Source: Candidatus Merdinaster equi (GTDB lineage Bacteria; Bacillota; Clostridia; Lachnospirales; Lachnospiraceae). Taken from it: a DNA stretch of 33,726 nucleotides. Location of the stretch: the NCBI GenBank assembly GCA_018064935.1, contig JAGHUF010000096.1, positions 1-33,726 of the forward strand, in the 5' to 3' direction. Under the pieces are notes generated by a model. The model made no database searches. It was not told where the DNA came from and saw nothing but the letters and a program-made list of their open reading frames with translations. A program made the translations under genes and the position numbers. Positions 6,274 to 23,151 of this stretch are shown piece after piece. How positions within the stretch are numbered: position 1 is the first letter of the stretch; each line of letters opens with the position of its first letter.

Positions 6274-7338
6274 ATGAGAAAGAATAAAGTAATAAGTAGA
6301 ATTATTGTATCACTCGGTGTTTGTTCACTTGTAGCCATGACTGCGTGTGGTGTTACAAATGCTATTAATGGTGAGCCTCAGAAACTAAATAGCAGCAATG
6401 GTACGACTGAATCTGAAGCAGCAGAAGGAATGACCGAACCAGAAGTGACTCCTGAGGAGGAGAAAAAAGGCGAGATTCAGACCTATGATGTTCTCGGAGC
6501 AGGTGGAGATAATACTACATCAGGTGATAATACTGGGGATATTCCAGCAGAAGAGGCACCTGGAGTATATGTGCACGATTCGGATGTTAAGCCACTTGGA
6601 GGTGTGTCCCTGCTTGTCTGTGATGACAGTACCTGCGTTATTGTAGAAACAGATGCTAATGGATATGCAGATTTGACTGATTATTCGGGAACATATGAGG
6701 TGCATGTATATGATGTACCTGATGGTGTCGAGTATGATGCGGATTATGTATATTACTATAACCAGGGAGATGCAATGCACATAATGCTCAGGTACGAGAA
6801 TGATTCTCCAGCTTCTGGTAATAGTGAAGAAAGTGCAAGTAATGAAGGCAGTGATCGTGCATCAGAGATTTCTTTATCTTTTTCTGCAAAAGACAGAAAT
6901 GGCAAGACAGTAACTGATTCGATATTTGCTGATTACAAGTACACAATTATCAATAACTGGGAACCATGGTGTGGTCCATGTGTTGGCGAGATGCCTGATC
7001 TTGAGAAAATATACGAGAAGTATGAGCCTATGGGGATCAATATGATTGGCGTTTACTCCACTGAGCAGGATGTGGATAGTACAATAAGACAGACCGGAGT
7101 TACATATATGATGCTTAAGGAGAATTCTTCTTTTGAGAAGGTATTCAGCACGGGATATGTTCCAAATACAATTGTTGTAGATTCAAATGGCAATCTGATA
7201 TATCTCGATGGGCTGGCAACAGGAACCCTTGGTTTTGTAAACAATCCTACTGATTATGAAACAATGTTATATAATTGCATTGTAATTGGAAGCAAATCAT
7301 ATAAGGACTGGGATAATTTCTTATCGCAGCTTCTGTAA
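6274..7338 (+). CDS. Thioredoxin-fold (TlpA-like) surface lipoprotein with an N-terminal beta-sandwich domain
   Basis: 354-residue predicted lipoprotein. A basic N-terminus and hydrophobic stretch end in the lipobox M-T-A-C with lipidated Cys25; methionine at -3 is tolerated but not ideal. A low-complexity acidic linker leads to a domain at about residues 105-175 that looks like a Cna-B/transthyretin-type sandwich (GGVSLLVCDDSTCVIVETD) and carries the cysteine pair C116/C121. A second linker precedes a TlpA/AhpC-like thioredoxin domain with W-C-G-P-C (C233, C236). Such proteins reduce or exchange disulfides outside the membrane. I start at the ATG at 6274, which has GAGG six bases upstream; ATG 6262 and GTG 6247 are poorer. 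It begins the run tlpA-like, tlpA-like, CXXC peptide, Fe-S protein, which suggests a shared electron path. The natural substrate is unknown. Confidence 0.85.
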   Translation: MRKNKVISRIIVSLGVCSLVAMTACGVTNAINGEPQKLNSSNGTTESEAAEGMTEPEVTPEEEKKGEIQTYDVLGAGGDNTTSGDNTGDIPAEEAPGVYVHDSDVKPLGGVSLLVCDDSTCVIVETDANGYADLTDYSGTYEVHVYDVPDGVEYDADYVYYYNQGDAMHIMLRYENDSPASGNSEESASNEGSDRASEISLSFSAKDRNGKTVTDSIFADYKYTIINNWEPWCGPCVGEMPDLEKIYEKYEPMGINMIGVYSTEQDVDSTIRQTGVTYMMLKENSSFEKVFSTGYVPNTIVVDSNGNLIYLDGLATGTLGFVNNPTDYETMLYNCIVIGSKSYKDWDNFLSQLL

Positions 7339-7350
7339 ATTGGGTCATTG

Positions 7351-8061
7351 ATGGAAAGTAAAAATAACAAAAAACAAGATTTAATAATATTAGCCATAGG
7401 AATAATCCTGGTACTTTGTGCCGGGATTTTTCTGATATTTTGCGTAGTTAATGTTTCTGTAACTGAAAAATCCTCAGATATGGATGCCGTCAGTATGAAC
7501 GAAAAGGAATCATATGCAGATATTTCACCTACAGCTGCGGAGGAAGACAAATCAGGTGGATCAGGCGAAATAGCCGATTCTGGTCCTGACAGCGAAGCAA
7601 AAGCCCATGCAGATAATATCTTCGCAGGATTTAGGTGTGAGGATATGGATGGCACAATGCATTCTTCAGATGAATTTGCAGGAGCCAAGGTAACTCTCAT
7701 TAACATATGGTCGACATTCTGCGGACCGTGCGTTGAGGAAATGCCAGACCTCGATAAACTGTCCAAAGATTATTCAGACAAGGGTTTGCAGGTGTTTGGC
7801 GTCTGTGCGGATCTGTGGAGACGAGGCAAGAAGAGTGAGGATAAAGCTGATGAAGCTCGCACAATTCTGGAGGGGTGCCAGGTTACGTACCCTGTCTTGT
7901 TCCCAGATGAGCAGCTGCAGCAAAAACTCGACGACAATATTTTTACATACCCTACAACCTATCTTATTGATGAGAATGGAGAGGTATTAACAGTTATTCA
8001 GGGAAGTAAATCGCTTGAAAAATTTGAAGAGTTAATTAATTCGTTTGGAATTATATCATAG
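7351..8061 (+). CDS. Membrane-anchored TlpA-family thiol-disulfide oxidoreductase
   Basis: 236-residue protein with one N-terminal membrane segment (about residues 9-33) and no lipobox, then a polar linker and a TlpA-type thioredoxin domain. The active site is S-T-F-C-G-P-C with C124 and C127; Phe replaces the usual Trp before the first Cys. The family cis-proline region appears as FTYPTTYLID and the domain closes with an ENGEVLTVIQG hairpin. It lies 12 bases after the lipoprotein gene. The start is the ATG at 7351, which directly follows a TTG; the ribosome site is weak (GGGT), so coupling to the upstream gene is likely. It differs from its neighbour in anchor and in lacking the beta-sandwich domain, so the two may act in sequence or on different partners. 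Substrate unknown. Confidence 0.85.
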   Translation: MESKNNKKQDLIILAIGIILVLCAGIFLIFCVVNVSVTEKSSDMDAVSMNEKESYADISPTAAEEDKSGGSGEIADSGPDSEAKAHADNIFAGFRCEDMDGTMHSSDEFAGAKVTLINIWSTFCGPCVEEMPDLDKLSKDYSDKGLQVFGVCADLWRRGKKSEDKADEARTILEGCQVTYPVLFPDEQLQQKLDDNIFTYPTTYLIDENGEVLTVIQGSKSLEKFEELINSFGIIS

Positions 8062-8110
8062 GCCATAAAAGGTACATTGATATAACTGGAATATGCAAAA
8101 AGGAGCAAAG

Positions 8111-8257
8111 ATGAAACCTGTACTTAAAAAACTGGCGCCGTTTATATTGCTTGCTGTTTCACTAGTTTTTATTGGGGTTGGTCTTCTTAGAGGGGAGCAT
8201 CAGACCGTATTGGAAAAAGCAATCAACATATGCATGGAGTGTATAGGAATTGGATAA
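8111..8257 (+). CDS. CD1871A-family CXXC-motif membrane micro-protein
   Basis: 48-residue protein, easily missed because of its length. The ATG at 8111 has a strong AAAGGAG five bases upstream. A lysine-containing N-terminus is followed by one membrane segment (about residues 8-26), then R-G-E-H-Q-T-V-L-E-K-A-I-N-I-C-M-E-C-I-G-I-G to the stop. The C-terminal C41-x-x-C44 and the RGE-TVL-KAINIC-EC-IGIG pattern match, from memory, the Clostridial CD1871A family. With the short N-terminus inside, the CXXC would lie on the outer face beside the thioredoxin-like proteins (inference). Its 3' end overlaps the start of the Fe-S gene by 8 bases, pointing to translational coupling and joint function. 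No biochemical role for this family is known to me. Confidence 0.85.
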   Translation: MKPVLKKLAPFILLAVSLVFIGVGLLRGEHQTVLEKAINICMECIGIG

Positions 8258-9269
8258 AACCACCTGCGATATAACGAAAGAACAGAATACAAAAGAACAG
8301 AATACAAAAGAACAGAACACGAAAGAGCAAAATGCACACAAAAAAGGTGATACCAACAAAGAGGTAAACTGCCGGAAGGTGAAGAAAAAGAAGGGCATTA
8401 GGTTATGGATTCAGCTCTTATGGACAGCAATTACCAATGGCTATGTAATCGGTTTTGTTGAAGGAAAAATCTTTAAGGGATCTTCAAAGCAATTCTGTGT
8501 TCCGGGATTAAACTGCTATTCCTGCCCGGGAGCGACATTTTCGTGCCCGATAGGATCGCTTATGGCGACGCTGAATGCTAGGCAGTTTCATTTTGCTTTT
8601 TATATAGTAGGTTTTCTGATGTTCTTTGGAAGCCTATTCGGAAGATTTGTGTGCGGATCTTTATGCCCATTTGGCTTGGTACAGGATCTGCTATATAAAA
8701 TTCCATTTCCTTTTAAGCGGAAGAACATGCCAGGGCATAAGGCTCTAAAATGGCTAAAATATGTAGTTCTCGTTGTGGTTGTGTTTCTCATGGGAAGCCT
8801 TATCAGCGATGCAACGGGACTTGGGCAACCATGGTTCTGCGAGTATATTTGCCCATCTGGTACTTTGATAGCAGGAATTCCGCTTGTAGCCATGAATGAA
8901 GGGCTTCAGGCGGCAGCAGGATTTAGATTCGCTCTTAAACTTGCAATATTGATAGTCATATTGCTGCTGTCTGTTGTATACTACAGACCATTTTGTAAGT
9001 ATCTGTGCCCATTAGGTGCATTATATGGATTGTTCAACCCTGTGGCTTTTTACCGCTTTGAAGTCGACAAAGAAAAATGTGTAGGTTGCGGTGCTTGTCA
9101 GAAAGCCTGCAGGATGGACATTCCCGTATATCTTAAGCCTAATTCACTAGATTGTATCAGGTGCGGAGATTGTAAAAGAGCCTGTCCTAAGGGGGCGATT
9201 GGAAGAGCTAAGATATTGCCAATCAATTCGTCAAAAAGTTCTGCTGTAGAAAAGAAGAATAATCAGTAG
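8250..9269 (+). CDS. NapH-like polytopic membrane 4Fe-4S protein
   Basis: 339-residue membrane protein with several hydrophobic helices and many cysteines. Pairs lie at or near membrane edges: C83/C89/C92/C99, C135/C139 (VCGSLCPFG), C197/C201 (CEYICPSG) and C249/C253 (CKYLCPLG). A C-terminal two-cluster ferredoxin domain follows, with CxxCxxCxxxC at C277-C287 and C302-C312. The layout resembles NapH, CcoG/RdxA and YccM proteins that relay electrons across or along the membrane. The only plausible early start is TTG at 8250, overlapping the CXXC gene, with GGAG about 10 bases upstream; GTG at 8379 is an alternative that would drop the polar N-terminus. That N-terminus holds four K-E-Q-N-T units. 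As last gene of the redox cluster it is a candidate electron donor to the CXXC peptide and the TlpA-like proteins (inference). Confidence 0.88.
   Translation: MDKTTCDITKEQNTKEQNTKEQNTKEQNAHKKGDTNKEVNCRKVKKKKGIRLWIQLLWTAITNGYVIGFVEGKIFKGSSKQFCVPGLNCYSCPGATFSCPIGSLMATLNARQFHFAFYIVGFLMFFGSLFGRFVCGSLCPFGLVQDLLYKIPFPFKRKNMPGHKALKWLKYVVLVVVVFLMGSLISDATGLGQPWFCEYICPSGTLIAGIPLVAMNEGLQAAAGFRFALKLAILIVILLLSVVYYRPFCKYLCPLGALYGLFNPVAFYRFEVDKEKCVGCGACQKACRMDIPVYLKPNSLDCIRCGDCKRACPKGAIGRAKILPINSSKSSAVEKKNNQ
8277..8336 (+). repeat. In-frame 15-bp tandem repeat (K-E-Q-N-T x4)
   Basis: Four copies of aaagaacagaataca, the last two diverged, encode K-E-Q-N-T three times then K-E-Q-N-A in the cytoplasmic N-terminal tail of the Fe-S protein. 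The open frame this creates on the opposite strand is an artefact. Confidence 0.85.
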
Positions 9270-21384: not shown

Positions 21385-23151
21385 ATGGCTTGGTACGATG
21401 AGGCGATATTTTATCATATTTACCCGTTAGGAATGCTGGATGCTCCTAAGGAGAATTCCTATGGAGAACCTGTTCACAGACTCCGTGAATTAAAAAAATG
21501 GATTCCATATTATAAAGAGCTGGGAATAAATGCTATATATATTGGACCTTTGTTTGAATCGGTAGGTCATGGATATGAAACTACTGACTACAGAAAGCTT
21601 GATTCGAGACTTGGTGATAATGATGATCTTAAGCAGTTTGTTAAGGACTGCCATAAAGAAGGAATCCATGTGATATTTGATGGTGTATTTAATCATGTCG
21701 GAAGAGATTTCTTCGCCTTCAAGGATCTCAAGCAAAACAGAGAGAATTCAAGATATAAGGATTGGTTCCTGAATGTAAACTTCTGGAACAATAATGAATA
21801 TAATGATGGCTTCAGCTACGAGAACTGGGGAGGCTACAACCTTCTTGTTAAGCTCAATCAGAGAAATCCTGAAGTCAAGGATTATATAAGAGACGTTATC
21901 AAGTTCTGGGTAAGTGAATTCGATGTGGATGGAATTCGTCTTGATGCGGCTGATGTTCTTGATTTTGACTATATGAAGATGTTAAGACAGGTTGCAAACG
22001 AGGTTAAACCTGATTTCTGGCTCATGGGAGAAGTTATCCATGGAGATTACTCAAGATGGGTTAATGACGGAACTCTTCATGCGGTTACGAATTACACACT
22101 TCATAAGGCGCTTTTCTCTGGACATAATGATCATAACTATTTTGAAATTGCACATACAGTAAAGCGTCTGTATGAGATGGGTGGTAACAGACCAGATGGT
22201 CTTAGACTCTACAATTTCTCTGATAATCATGATGTGGAGCGAATTATCAATAAGATTAATAATAAAGCAGCCTACTATCCAGTACATATTCTCGTATATA
22301 CTTTGCCTGGAGTTCCATCTATCTATTATGGTTCTGAGTGCGGAATAGAGGGTAGAAAAGAAAAAGGCTCAGATGCATCGCTGAGGCCTGCACTTAATTT
22401 TGATAATTACAAAAATGCAGTGAAGGAGAATGACTATGCTTCCTTCATTTCGAGACTGTCTAAGATTAGAAAGGTATTGCCAGCACTTTCATATGGCGAT
22501 TACAGAGAATCAATGCTGACGAATAGGCAGTATGCATATACAAGAAACTGTGGCGATTCATGTGTCATTGTGACAGTCAATAATGATGACAATCAGGCTA
22601 CCATCAATGGAAGAGGAGCAAAGGACGGTAACTATGTTGGAGCACTTTCAGGCAATAAGCTCAGCGTATGTGGTGGCAATTATTCGGCCGAGGTTCCTGG
22701 AAACTATGGAGAGATATGGGTGCCTGAAAACGAGGCTGGTGCACTTATTGGAGATATTAAGGAAAAGCCTATTAAGAGTGCGAAGGTTGCAGCAACACCT
22801 GTTTCCATAGCACCTGTTTCCATAGCACCTGTTACCATAGAACCTGTTGCCAATAAGAGCGATACTGCAAAGAATCAGGATATAGTGCAGAAGCAGGATT
22901 CTCAGAAAACTCAGCAAACAACAAAGGGCGGTGCCGCTGCAAAATATAACCTTGATGTGAAATATTCTGCATATAATCCTGACGAGATTGCATCCAGAAA
23001 TGATTATGATGCTATGACAATTGAAGAACTGCAGGTTGCAATTCTTGAGAAGATGGCACACAACGGATCAGTTAATGATCAGATGATTAAGACAGTAATG
23101 GATAATGTATATCTGGATTCGCTTAAAAACTGGGTTAAGAGTTTTAGATAG
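21385..23151 (+). CDS. GH13 family alpha-glucan-active glycoside hydrolase with an unusual C-terminal extension
   Basis: 588-residue protein without a signal peptide, so cytoplasmic. The TIM-barrel has the GH13 conserved regions: DGVFNHVG, GIRLDAADVL with nucleophile D187, GEVIHGD with acid/base E216, and FSDNHDVERI with H282-D283. This suits hydrolysis of alpha-1,4-linked oligosaccharides such as imported maltodextrins; precise specificity (cyclomaltodextrinase, neopullulanase, maltogenic amylase) cannot be set. A beta domain ends near residue 455. It is followed by a Pro/Val/Ile-rich repeat linker, a Gln-rich stretch and a 65-residue helical end (MTIEELQVAILEKMAHNG...) that is not part of a normal amylase. 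The ATG at 21385 has AAAGGAAG upstream. priA follows after 15 bases. No transporter or regulator of maltodextrins is nearby. Confidence 0.9.
   Translation: MAWYDEAIFYHIYPLGMLDAPKENSYGEPVHRLRELKKWIPYYKELGINAIYIGPLFESVGHGYETTDYRKLDSRLGDNDDLKQFVKDCHKEGIHVIFDGVFNHVGRDFFAFKDLKQNRENSRYKDWFLNVNFWNNNEYNDGFSYENWGGYNLLVKLNQRNPEVKDYIRDVIKFWVSEFDVDGIRLDAADVLDFDYMKMLRQVANEVKPDFWLMGEVIHGDYSRWVNDGTLHAVTNYTLHKALFSGHNDHNYFEIAHTVKRLYEMGGNRPDGLRLYNFSDNHDVERIINKINNKAAYYPVHILVYTLPGVPSIYYGSECGIEGRKEKGSDASLRPALNFDNYKNAVKENDYASFISRLSKIRKVLPALSYGDYRESMLTNRQYAYTRNCGDSCVIVTVNNDDNQATINGRGAKDGNYVGALSGNKLSVCGGNYSAEVPGNYGEIWVPENEAGALIGDIKEKPIKSAKVAATPVSIAPVSIAPVTIEPVANKSDTAKNQDIVQKQDSQKTQQTTKGGAAAKYNLDVKYSAYNPDEIASRNDYDAMTIEELQVAILEKMAHNGSVNDQMIKTVMDNVYLDSLKNWVKSFR
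22796..22855 (+). repeat. In-frame 15-bp tandem repeat in the GH13 linker
   Basis: Units of cacctgtttccatag at 22796, 22811 and 22826 (the last with one change), then a diverged fourth at 22841, encode A-P-V-S-I style units in the linker between the catalytic part and the C-terminal extension. Confidence 0.85.

Follow-up and report, generated by a model that had tools for sequence, protein, structure and literature searches.

The contig JAGHUF010000096.1 of Candidatus Merdinaster equi (Lachnospiraceae), a stretch of 33,726 nucleotides referred to here as the window, carries at positions 6274–9269 four genes on a single strand which encode two TlpA-like proteins, a 48-residue membrane peptide with a CXXC motif and a NapH-like iron-sulfur (Fe-S) protein. 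They belong to a conserved set, found in many gut anaerobes, by which electrons are probably brought across the membrane to surface thioredoxins, the task of the unrelated CcdA/DsbD proteins in other bacteria. We consider it likely that the genes form a system which reduces extracytoplasmic thioredoxins through the membrane and in which Fe-S clusters take the place of the thiol relay of CcdA/DsbD. The computed basis of this reading is the obligate pairing of peptide and Fe-S protein, their linkage and fusion to TlpA, the complementarity with CcdA/DsbD and six outer cysteines of the Fe-S protein. The composition of the cluster, its coordinates and the overlap of the last two genes had been proposed in a first-pass annotation and were borne out by open reading frames, Pfam and NCBIfam.

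The distribution of the module was determined in 250 genomes of the window's family, about one per genus, and in 249 genomes of the phylum. The peptide was sought with the NCBIfam model NF040920 (CD1871A family) and the Fe-S protein with an alignment of 27 diverse homologues. Within the family 92 of 250 genomes possess the peptide, and all 92 also possess the Fe-S protein, adjacent in nearly every case. The Fe-S protein occurs in 93 genomes, the additional one being G232, which is without a peptide because its Fe-S gene runs into the contig end and the assembly does not include the peptide side. At the level of the phylum the peptide was found in 33/249 and the Fe-S protein in 36/249 genomes, all 33 lying within the 36; the remaining three possess divergent peptides, ending in CLSCIG or CFSCIG plus two residues, which are missed by the family model. 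The pairing of peptide and Fe-S protein is obligate.

The third component is TlpA. All 81 family loci with flanks (80 plus the window) contain the peptide and the Fe-S gene, and a TlpA-like gene lies at most 6 kilobases away in 71 of them. Furthermore, 594 relatives were obtained when named genomes were scanned, and among the best 80 of these the peptide is present in 80 and TlpA in 70 loci, belonging to Lachnospiraceae, Oscillospiraceae, other Clostridia, Treponema, other Spirochaetia, a Selenomonadales genome and an Atopobiaceae metagenome-assembled genome. The core of the module consists of the CXXC peptide, the Fe-S protein and at least one TlpA protein. That the linkage should be conserved in related genomes was thereby confirmed, with the pair in essentially every genome and usually a TlpA gene beside it; the two TlpA genes of the first-pass annotation do exist in the window but are not the rule elsewhere, where one is typical. 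The gene order varies, TlpA being located either before or after the pair, and the membership stays constant, which argues against mere inherited gene order.

CcdA/DsbD was scored by PF02683 and the TlpA homologues by a module-derived alignment. No match to PF02683 was obtained in the four window proteins or in the window's genome, which is 75% complete. Of the 250 family genomes 74 have such a match, 14/92 with the peptide versus 60/158 without it (odds ratio (OR) 0.29, p = 1.6e-4), in tests which, here and below, count genomes as independent although they are related by descent. CcdA is also rarer with the module in family genomes with a completeness of 90% or more and a contamination of 5% or less (OR 0.36, p = 0.004) and in the phylum, where it occurs in 16/36 genomes with the Fe-S protein versus 160/213 others (OR 0.27, p = 5e-4). 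The module and CcdA/DsbD are complementary. TlpA was detected in 77/79 family genomes with only the Fe-S protein, in 56/60 with only CcdA, in 14/14 with both and in 3/97 with neither; the genomes with the module or CcdA/DsbD (147/153) differ accordingly from those with neither (3/97; OR 768, p = 4e-57). The phylum gave a weaker repeat (114/196 with either carrier versus 2/53 with neither, p = 2.7e-14), and TlpA is commoner there in module-only genomes than in those with neither (p = 2.8e-6). TlpA rarely occurs in the absence of a membrane electron carrier, and it is accompanied by either of the two. Among the 91 module genomes of the family with TlpA-like proteins 77 have no CcdA/DsbD, and the module is a testable candidate for keeping TlpA-like proteins reduced in such genomes. 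In one of the three exceptional genomes with neither carrier the TlpA domain stands behind a rhodanese-like stretch (L202:4164-5228, minus strand).

Natural fusions join the Fe-S protein to TlpA directly. In locus L109 a protein of 477 residues in all consists of the Fe-S protein, a Lys/Arg-rich stretch, one membrane helix and a TlpA domain, and in locus L193 a second fusion of Fe-S protein, membrane helix and TlpA domain was found (560 residues, start missing); the two may descend from one event. The charge-rich stretch ahead of the extra helix is consistent with a ferredoxin domain in the cytoplasm and a TlpA domain outside. Many genomes with CcdA have the matches to CcdA and to TlpA in one open frame of 400–500 codons, which follows the same fusion logic.

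The Fe-S protein (339 residues, 8250–9269, plus strand, TTG start at 8250, stop ending at 9269) overlaps the end of the peptide gene by 8 nucleotides. It passes the Pfam cut-offs for Fer4_5 (67.8 bits, three stretches) and Fer4 (40.7 bits) and belongs to the NapH-like superfamily (PF12801, Fer4_5), with two inner CX3CP motifs and a C-terminal 4Fe-4S pair, and it stays under the curated cut-offs for NapH/MauN (TIGR02163, 55.1 versus 213 bits; PRK09477, 41.6 versus 234 bits). The inner motifs, C135/C139 (8652–8666) and C249/C253 (8994–9008), recognised by alignment and conservation, are predicted at the cytoplasmic edge, and the ferredoxin domain (9078–9185, Pfam Fer4), with its two 4Fe-4S motifs C277/280/283/287 and C302/305/308/312, is predicted to be cytoplasmic. 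Escherichia coli NapH and YccM are clear homologues (hhalign probability 98.8 and 99.6, respectively) and share the four inner cysteines and the eight of the ferredoxin domain in the alignment. The remaining six cysteines are predicted to be extracytoplasmic, namely C83, C89, C92 and C99 in a CX5CX2CX6CP arrangement (8496–8546; conservation, alignment and topology) and C197 and C201 in a CX3CP motif (8838–8852; alignment and conservation). All six are absent from NapH and YccM in the alignment and, by this comparison, set the Fe-S protein apart from both. The four membrane-edge cysteine sets noticed earlier are thus present, but two of them are the ordinary inner motifs of NapH and the new feature is the six outer cysteines. 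Sixteen of the 18 cysteines are invariant in 174 homologues (the ferredoxin eight, C135, C139, C249, C253, C89, C92, C99 and C201), while eight homologues have a shifted C83 and three divergent ones a Ser in place of C197. In the divergent clade of L199, L200 and L201 the peptide ends in CLSCIGIQ and FSKLCFVG replaces FCKYICPxG in the Fe-S protein (C197 to Ser), and this clade is informative on which outer cysteines matter. An Atopobiaceae metagenome-assembled genome has an Fe-S protein with an additional C-terminal multi-helix membrane domain (L117:6058-7557). Within the window's Fe-S gene a 15-base-pair tandem repeat (AAAGAACAGAATACA, 3.3 copies, 8277–8326) gives rise to a KEQNT repeat in the N-terminus of the protein which was not seen in homologues.

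Hydropathy indicates four helices, the first weak and the other three strong, and the net charges amount to +6 in the loop between helices 2 and 3, −0.3 in the loop between helices 3 and 4 and +3.3 in the region past helix 4. Because of the hydropathy and these charges the ferredoxin domain and the inner motifs are predicted to be cytoplasmic and the two extra cysteine sets to lie outside. The first CX3CP motif of NapH is required for interaction with NapF (PMC5928378), a cytoplasmic protein according to the reference list of that study, which fits inner CX3CP motifs on the cytoplasmic side. AlphaFold gave a mean predicted local distance difference test score (pLDDT) of 80.2 and a predicted template modelling score (pTM) of 0.76 for the window protein alone. 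For the natural same-frame pair of peptide and Fe-S protein in locus L131, with the TAG codon read through, the values were 80.6 and 0.78, and the peptide appears as two confident helices. The poorly modelled outer cysteine loop is compatible with folding around clusters but is no proof of it. The outer-face elements (101–120 and 181–220 in the window protein) score somewhat higher in the model with the peptide; this is no more than a hint, as targets and alignments differ. In the fold alignment the peptide was carried by only five same-frame read-through rows, lone peptide rows being misaligned when added. Sequence and fold searches of the PDB found the ferredoxin domain as the sole part with solved relatives, and a viral fold search gave no match; these searches hardly probed the membrane part.

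The 48-residue peptide (8111–8257, plus strand, ATG at 8111 preceded by AGGAG, stop ending at 8257) is a clear member of NF040920 (68.7 bits versus a cut-off of 32, E = 2.8e-19), a family whose entry names no function. It consists of a single hydrophobic helix followed by the C-terminus CMECIGIG, with C41 and C44 (8231–8242) recognised by conservation. Both cysteines and the glycine two residues past the second one are invariant in 154 distinct homologues; the Glu just before the second Cys is present in 99% and a Lys five positions before the first Cys in 97% of them. Nearly all end exactly at CxECxGxG. Given this conservation and that of the Fe-S cysteines, the gene set is not a chance observation. 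The net charge is +2.3 ahead of the helix and about 0 behind it. Because the positive charge precedes the helix, the N-terminus is predicted inside and the CXXC end outside, on the TlpA side of the membrane, as the electron path of the first-pass annotation would require. In L109 a longer protein, with two additional hydrophobic segments, carries the peptide as its C-terminal portion.

Both TlpA proteins of the window have the features of TlpA/ResA-like proteins, a Redoxin/AhpC-TSA fold, a CXXC motif and an export signal or membrane anchor, and are, as members of a reductant family, candidate extracytoplasmic disulfide reductases. The first one (354 residues, 6274–7338, plus strand, ATG at 6274, stop ending at 7338) begins with a signal and a plausible lipobox (VAMTAC, C25), which makes it a predicted lipoprotein. 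Its active site reads WCGPC (6970–6981), and it scores above the Pfam cut-offs for AhpC-TSA (47 bits) and Redoxin (44 bits) and also matches the TlpA profile of the module. It has an extra small N-terminal domain (6540–6800) with the Cys pair VCDDSTC; a similar domain (NFCDESSC) in L109 is placed C-terminal to a TlpA domain. The second one (236 residues, 7351–8061, plus strand, ATG at 7351 with an alternative TTG at 7348, stop ending at 8061) possesses a hydrophobic membrane helix at its N-terminus and an FCGPC active site (7720–7731). It exceeds the Redoxin cut-off (59.5 bits) and is the top match to the module TlpA profile in its own genome (E = 1.5e-57).

In the mechanism that we propose, the C-terminal domain with its two 4Fe-4S clusters would be fed by a low-potential donor of the cytoplasm, most likely reduced ferredoxin. 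Electrons would pass on to a putative centre at the inner edge of the membrane, with the conserved C135, C139, C249 and C253 as its ligands, and would cross the bilayer to a second putative centre on the predicted outer side, held by C89, C92, C99 and C201 with C83 and C197 nearby. The CXXC peptide may dock at this outer centre through its fixed CxECIGIG tail and would either relay electrons as a dithiol or provide the centre with two ligands or a disulfide. Finally, the TlpA proteins would be reduced and hand electrons to surface substrates, as suggested by the TlpA family, the co-occurrence and the fusion. We infer the cluster types, their order, the donor and the direction from NapH-type proteins, TlpA/ResA biology and the swap with CcdA/DsbD. 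More tentatively, and with somewhat more doubt than belief, the module may represent a chemically new type of transmembrane disulfide reductase, in which single electrons brought through the bilayer by Fe-S clusters are converted into dithiol power for TlpA by a CXXC micropeptide and an outer six-cysteine site, with which many anaerobes would manage without CcdA/DsbD.

Several observations weigh against the proposed reducing system. Fourteen of the 92 module genomes carry CcdA as well, so that the term CcdA-independent used in the first-pass annotation suits most module genomes but not these; the other 78 are without a PF02683 match, and a ccdA-like gene does not always accompany the TlpA module. 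The rule that TlpA goes with a carrier is partly built in, because TlpA often lies in the same operon and the genomes share descent. The net charge of loop 1 of the Fe-S protein, a predicted outer loop, is +3.5, contrary to the positive-inside rule, the first helix is only weakly hydrophobic, and the outer cysteine loop is of low confidence in both AlphaFold models. In addition, a second Fe-S paralogue (L204:3730-4641, minus strand) has the outer cysteines with no CXXC peptide nearby, and clustering of the neighbouring genes of the loci yielded no conserved substrate gene that would speak for the protection or maturation of surface proteins suggested in the first-pass annotation. Overall, the earlier interpretation, electron flow from the cytoplasm through the Fe-S protein and the CXXC peptide to surface thioredoxins, is partly supported.

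The closest alternative is a variant within the peptide step of this mechanism: the peptide would be a structural subunit whose two cysteines complete an outer-face Fe-S cluster, electrons passing straight to TlpA. Six outer and two peptide cysteines make eight, as for two 4Fe-4S clusters, the peptide ends at a fixed four residues past its second Cys, as though this end sat inside a pocket, and the Fe-S protein is essentially never found without it. However, eight strict ligands are not kept, given the Ser at C197 in three and the shift of C83 in eight homologues, and a CXXC motif is a classical redox pair as well; we regard this variant as possible, but on the doubtful side. The module might also run inwards and oxidise outside thiols like a DsbB/VKOR-type oxidant, since its anatomy does not fix the direction and thioredoxin-fold proteins include oxidants. 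This is very unlikely, as the partners are TlpA/ResA-like proteins with mostly CGPC, CNPC and CPPC active sites, a reductant family which otherwise goes with CcdA/DsbD, a reductant supply, and as electrons would have to move uphill to reach ferredoxin from a dithiol.

A respiratory or flavin-linked NapH-like system with TlpA as a mere maturation factor is suggested by the homology of the membrane core to NapH and by the FMN-binding (flavin mononucleotide) or respiratory partners which NapH-like proteins often serve (PMC8238504). Yet the recurring partners here are the peptide and TlpA, and the recurrent flanking families are mostly two-component regulators and ATP-binding cassette (ABC) transporters, a respiratory enzyme not being among them, which leaves this explanation very unlikely. 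A Pfam search of the four proteins of the window detected no domain that binds FMN, and the neighbours of the relatives were clustered, not scanned for it. It is highly improbable that the neighbourhood merely unites unrelated housekeeping redox genes: the variable position of TlpA would suit such linkage without function, but the constant membership amid variable order and flanks, the natural fusions and the CcdA complementarity argue for function.

With regard to the surroundings, histidine kinase or response-regulator-like genes are located near the module in 39 loci, and an Rrf2-like regulator gene stands beside or within it in five (e.g. L066:6209-6628, minus strand). In the window the cluster is flanked by an aspartyl-tRNA synthetase-like gene on one side and an ACT-domain/homoserine dehydrogenase-like pair on the other, as read from the sequence. 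Two more short tandem repeats with units of 12 and 15 base pairs are present at 594–643 and 22796–22852, and a promoter scan gave a result no better than shuffles.

The first-pass annotation knew of no described system of this composition, and none was found in the literature searched on CD1871A, on TlpA together with 4Fe-4S and CcdA, and on NapH-like proteins together with TlpA, most subscription journals being outside its scope. The same search found no paper naming the CD1871A family; papers that name CD1871 deal with a gene of a conjugative transposon or with the permease of an ABC transporter. The module offers a function for this curated, unexplained protein family. With NapH, NosR and RdhC (PceC) the Fe-S protein shares the four-helix membrane core and the two CX3CP motifs of membrane electron carriers (PMC8238504, PMC5928378), and with NapH also the two C-terminal 4Fe-4S motifs. 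A survey of flavinylated systems lists NapH-like proteins and DsbD with FMN-binding or DUF4266 partners, but not the present combination (PMC8238504). Known partners of NapH-like systems are NapG, NosZ or a reductive dehalogenase, whereas here they are the CXXC peptide and TlpA; the NapH-type core appears to be re-tooled by the added outer cysteines and a micropeptide. A NapH-like and a thioredoxin-like protein are also encoded in one gene cluster in the case of MauN and MauD, which act in the maturation of methylamine dehydrogenase. That system is tied to one enzyme, the membrane partner of MauD is MauE, and we know of no CXXC peptide in it. A precedent for the chemistry is ferredoxin:thioredoxin reductase, in which a 4Fe-4S cluster reduces the disulfide of thioredoxin with electrons from ferredoxin; it is soluble and does not involve a crossing of the membrane, and no sequence kinship to the module is known to us. 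Nor do we know of an earlier Fe-S route for the reduction of extracytoplasmic thioredoxins, and the module, if the proposal is true, would be the first. What such systems can serve is illustrated by the pneumococcal CcdA-Etrx-MsrAB2 system, in which CcdA acts with surface TlpA-like lipoproteins (PMC3914529). The module belongs to a known kind, the transmembrane electron supply for extracytoplasmic thioredoxins, and its chemistry stands a fair chance of forming a category of its own. CcdA/DsbD has the same proposed task, the transfer of cytoplasmic electrons to TlpA-like surface thioredoxins, but is an unrelated protein with a thiol relay from cytoplasmic thioredoxin, in place of which the module would use an Fe-S protein and a CXXC peptide.

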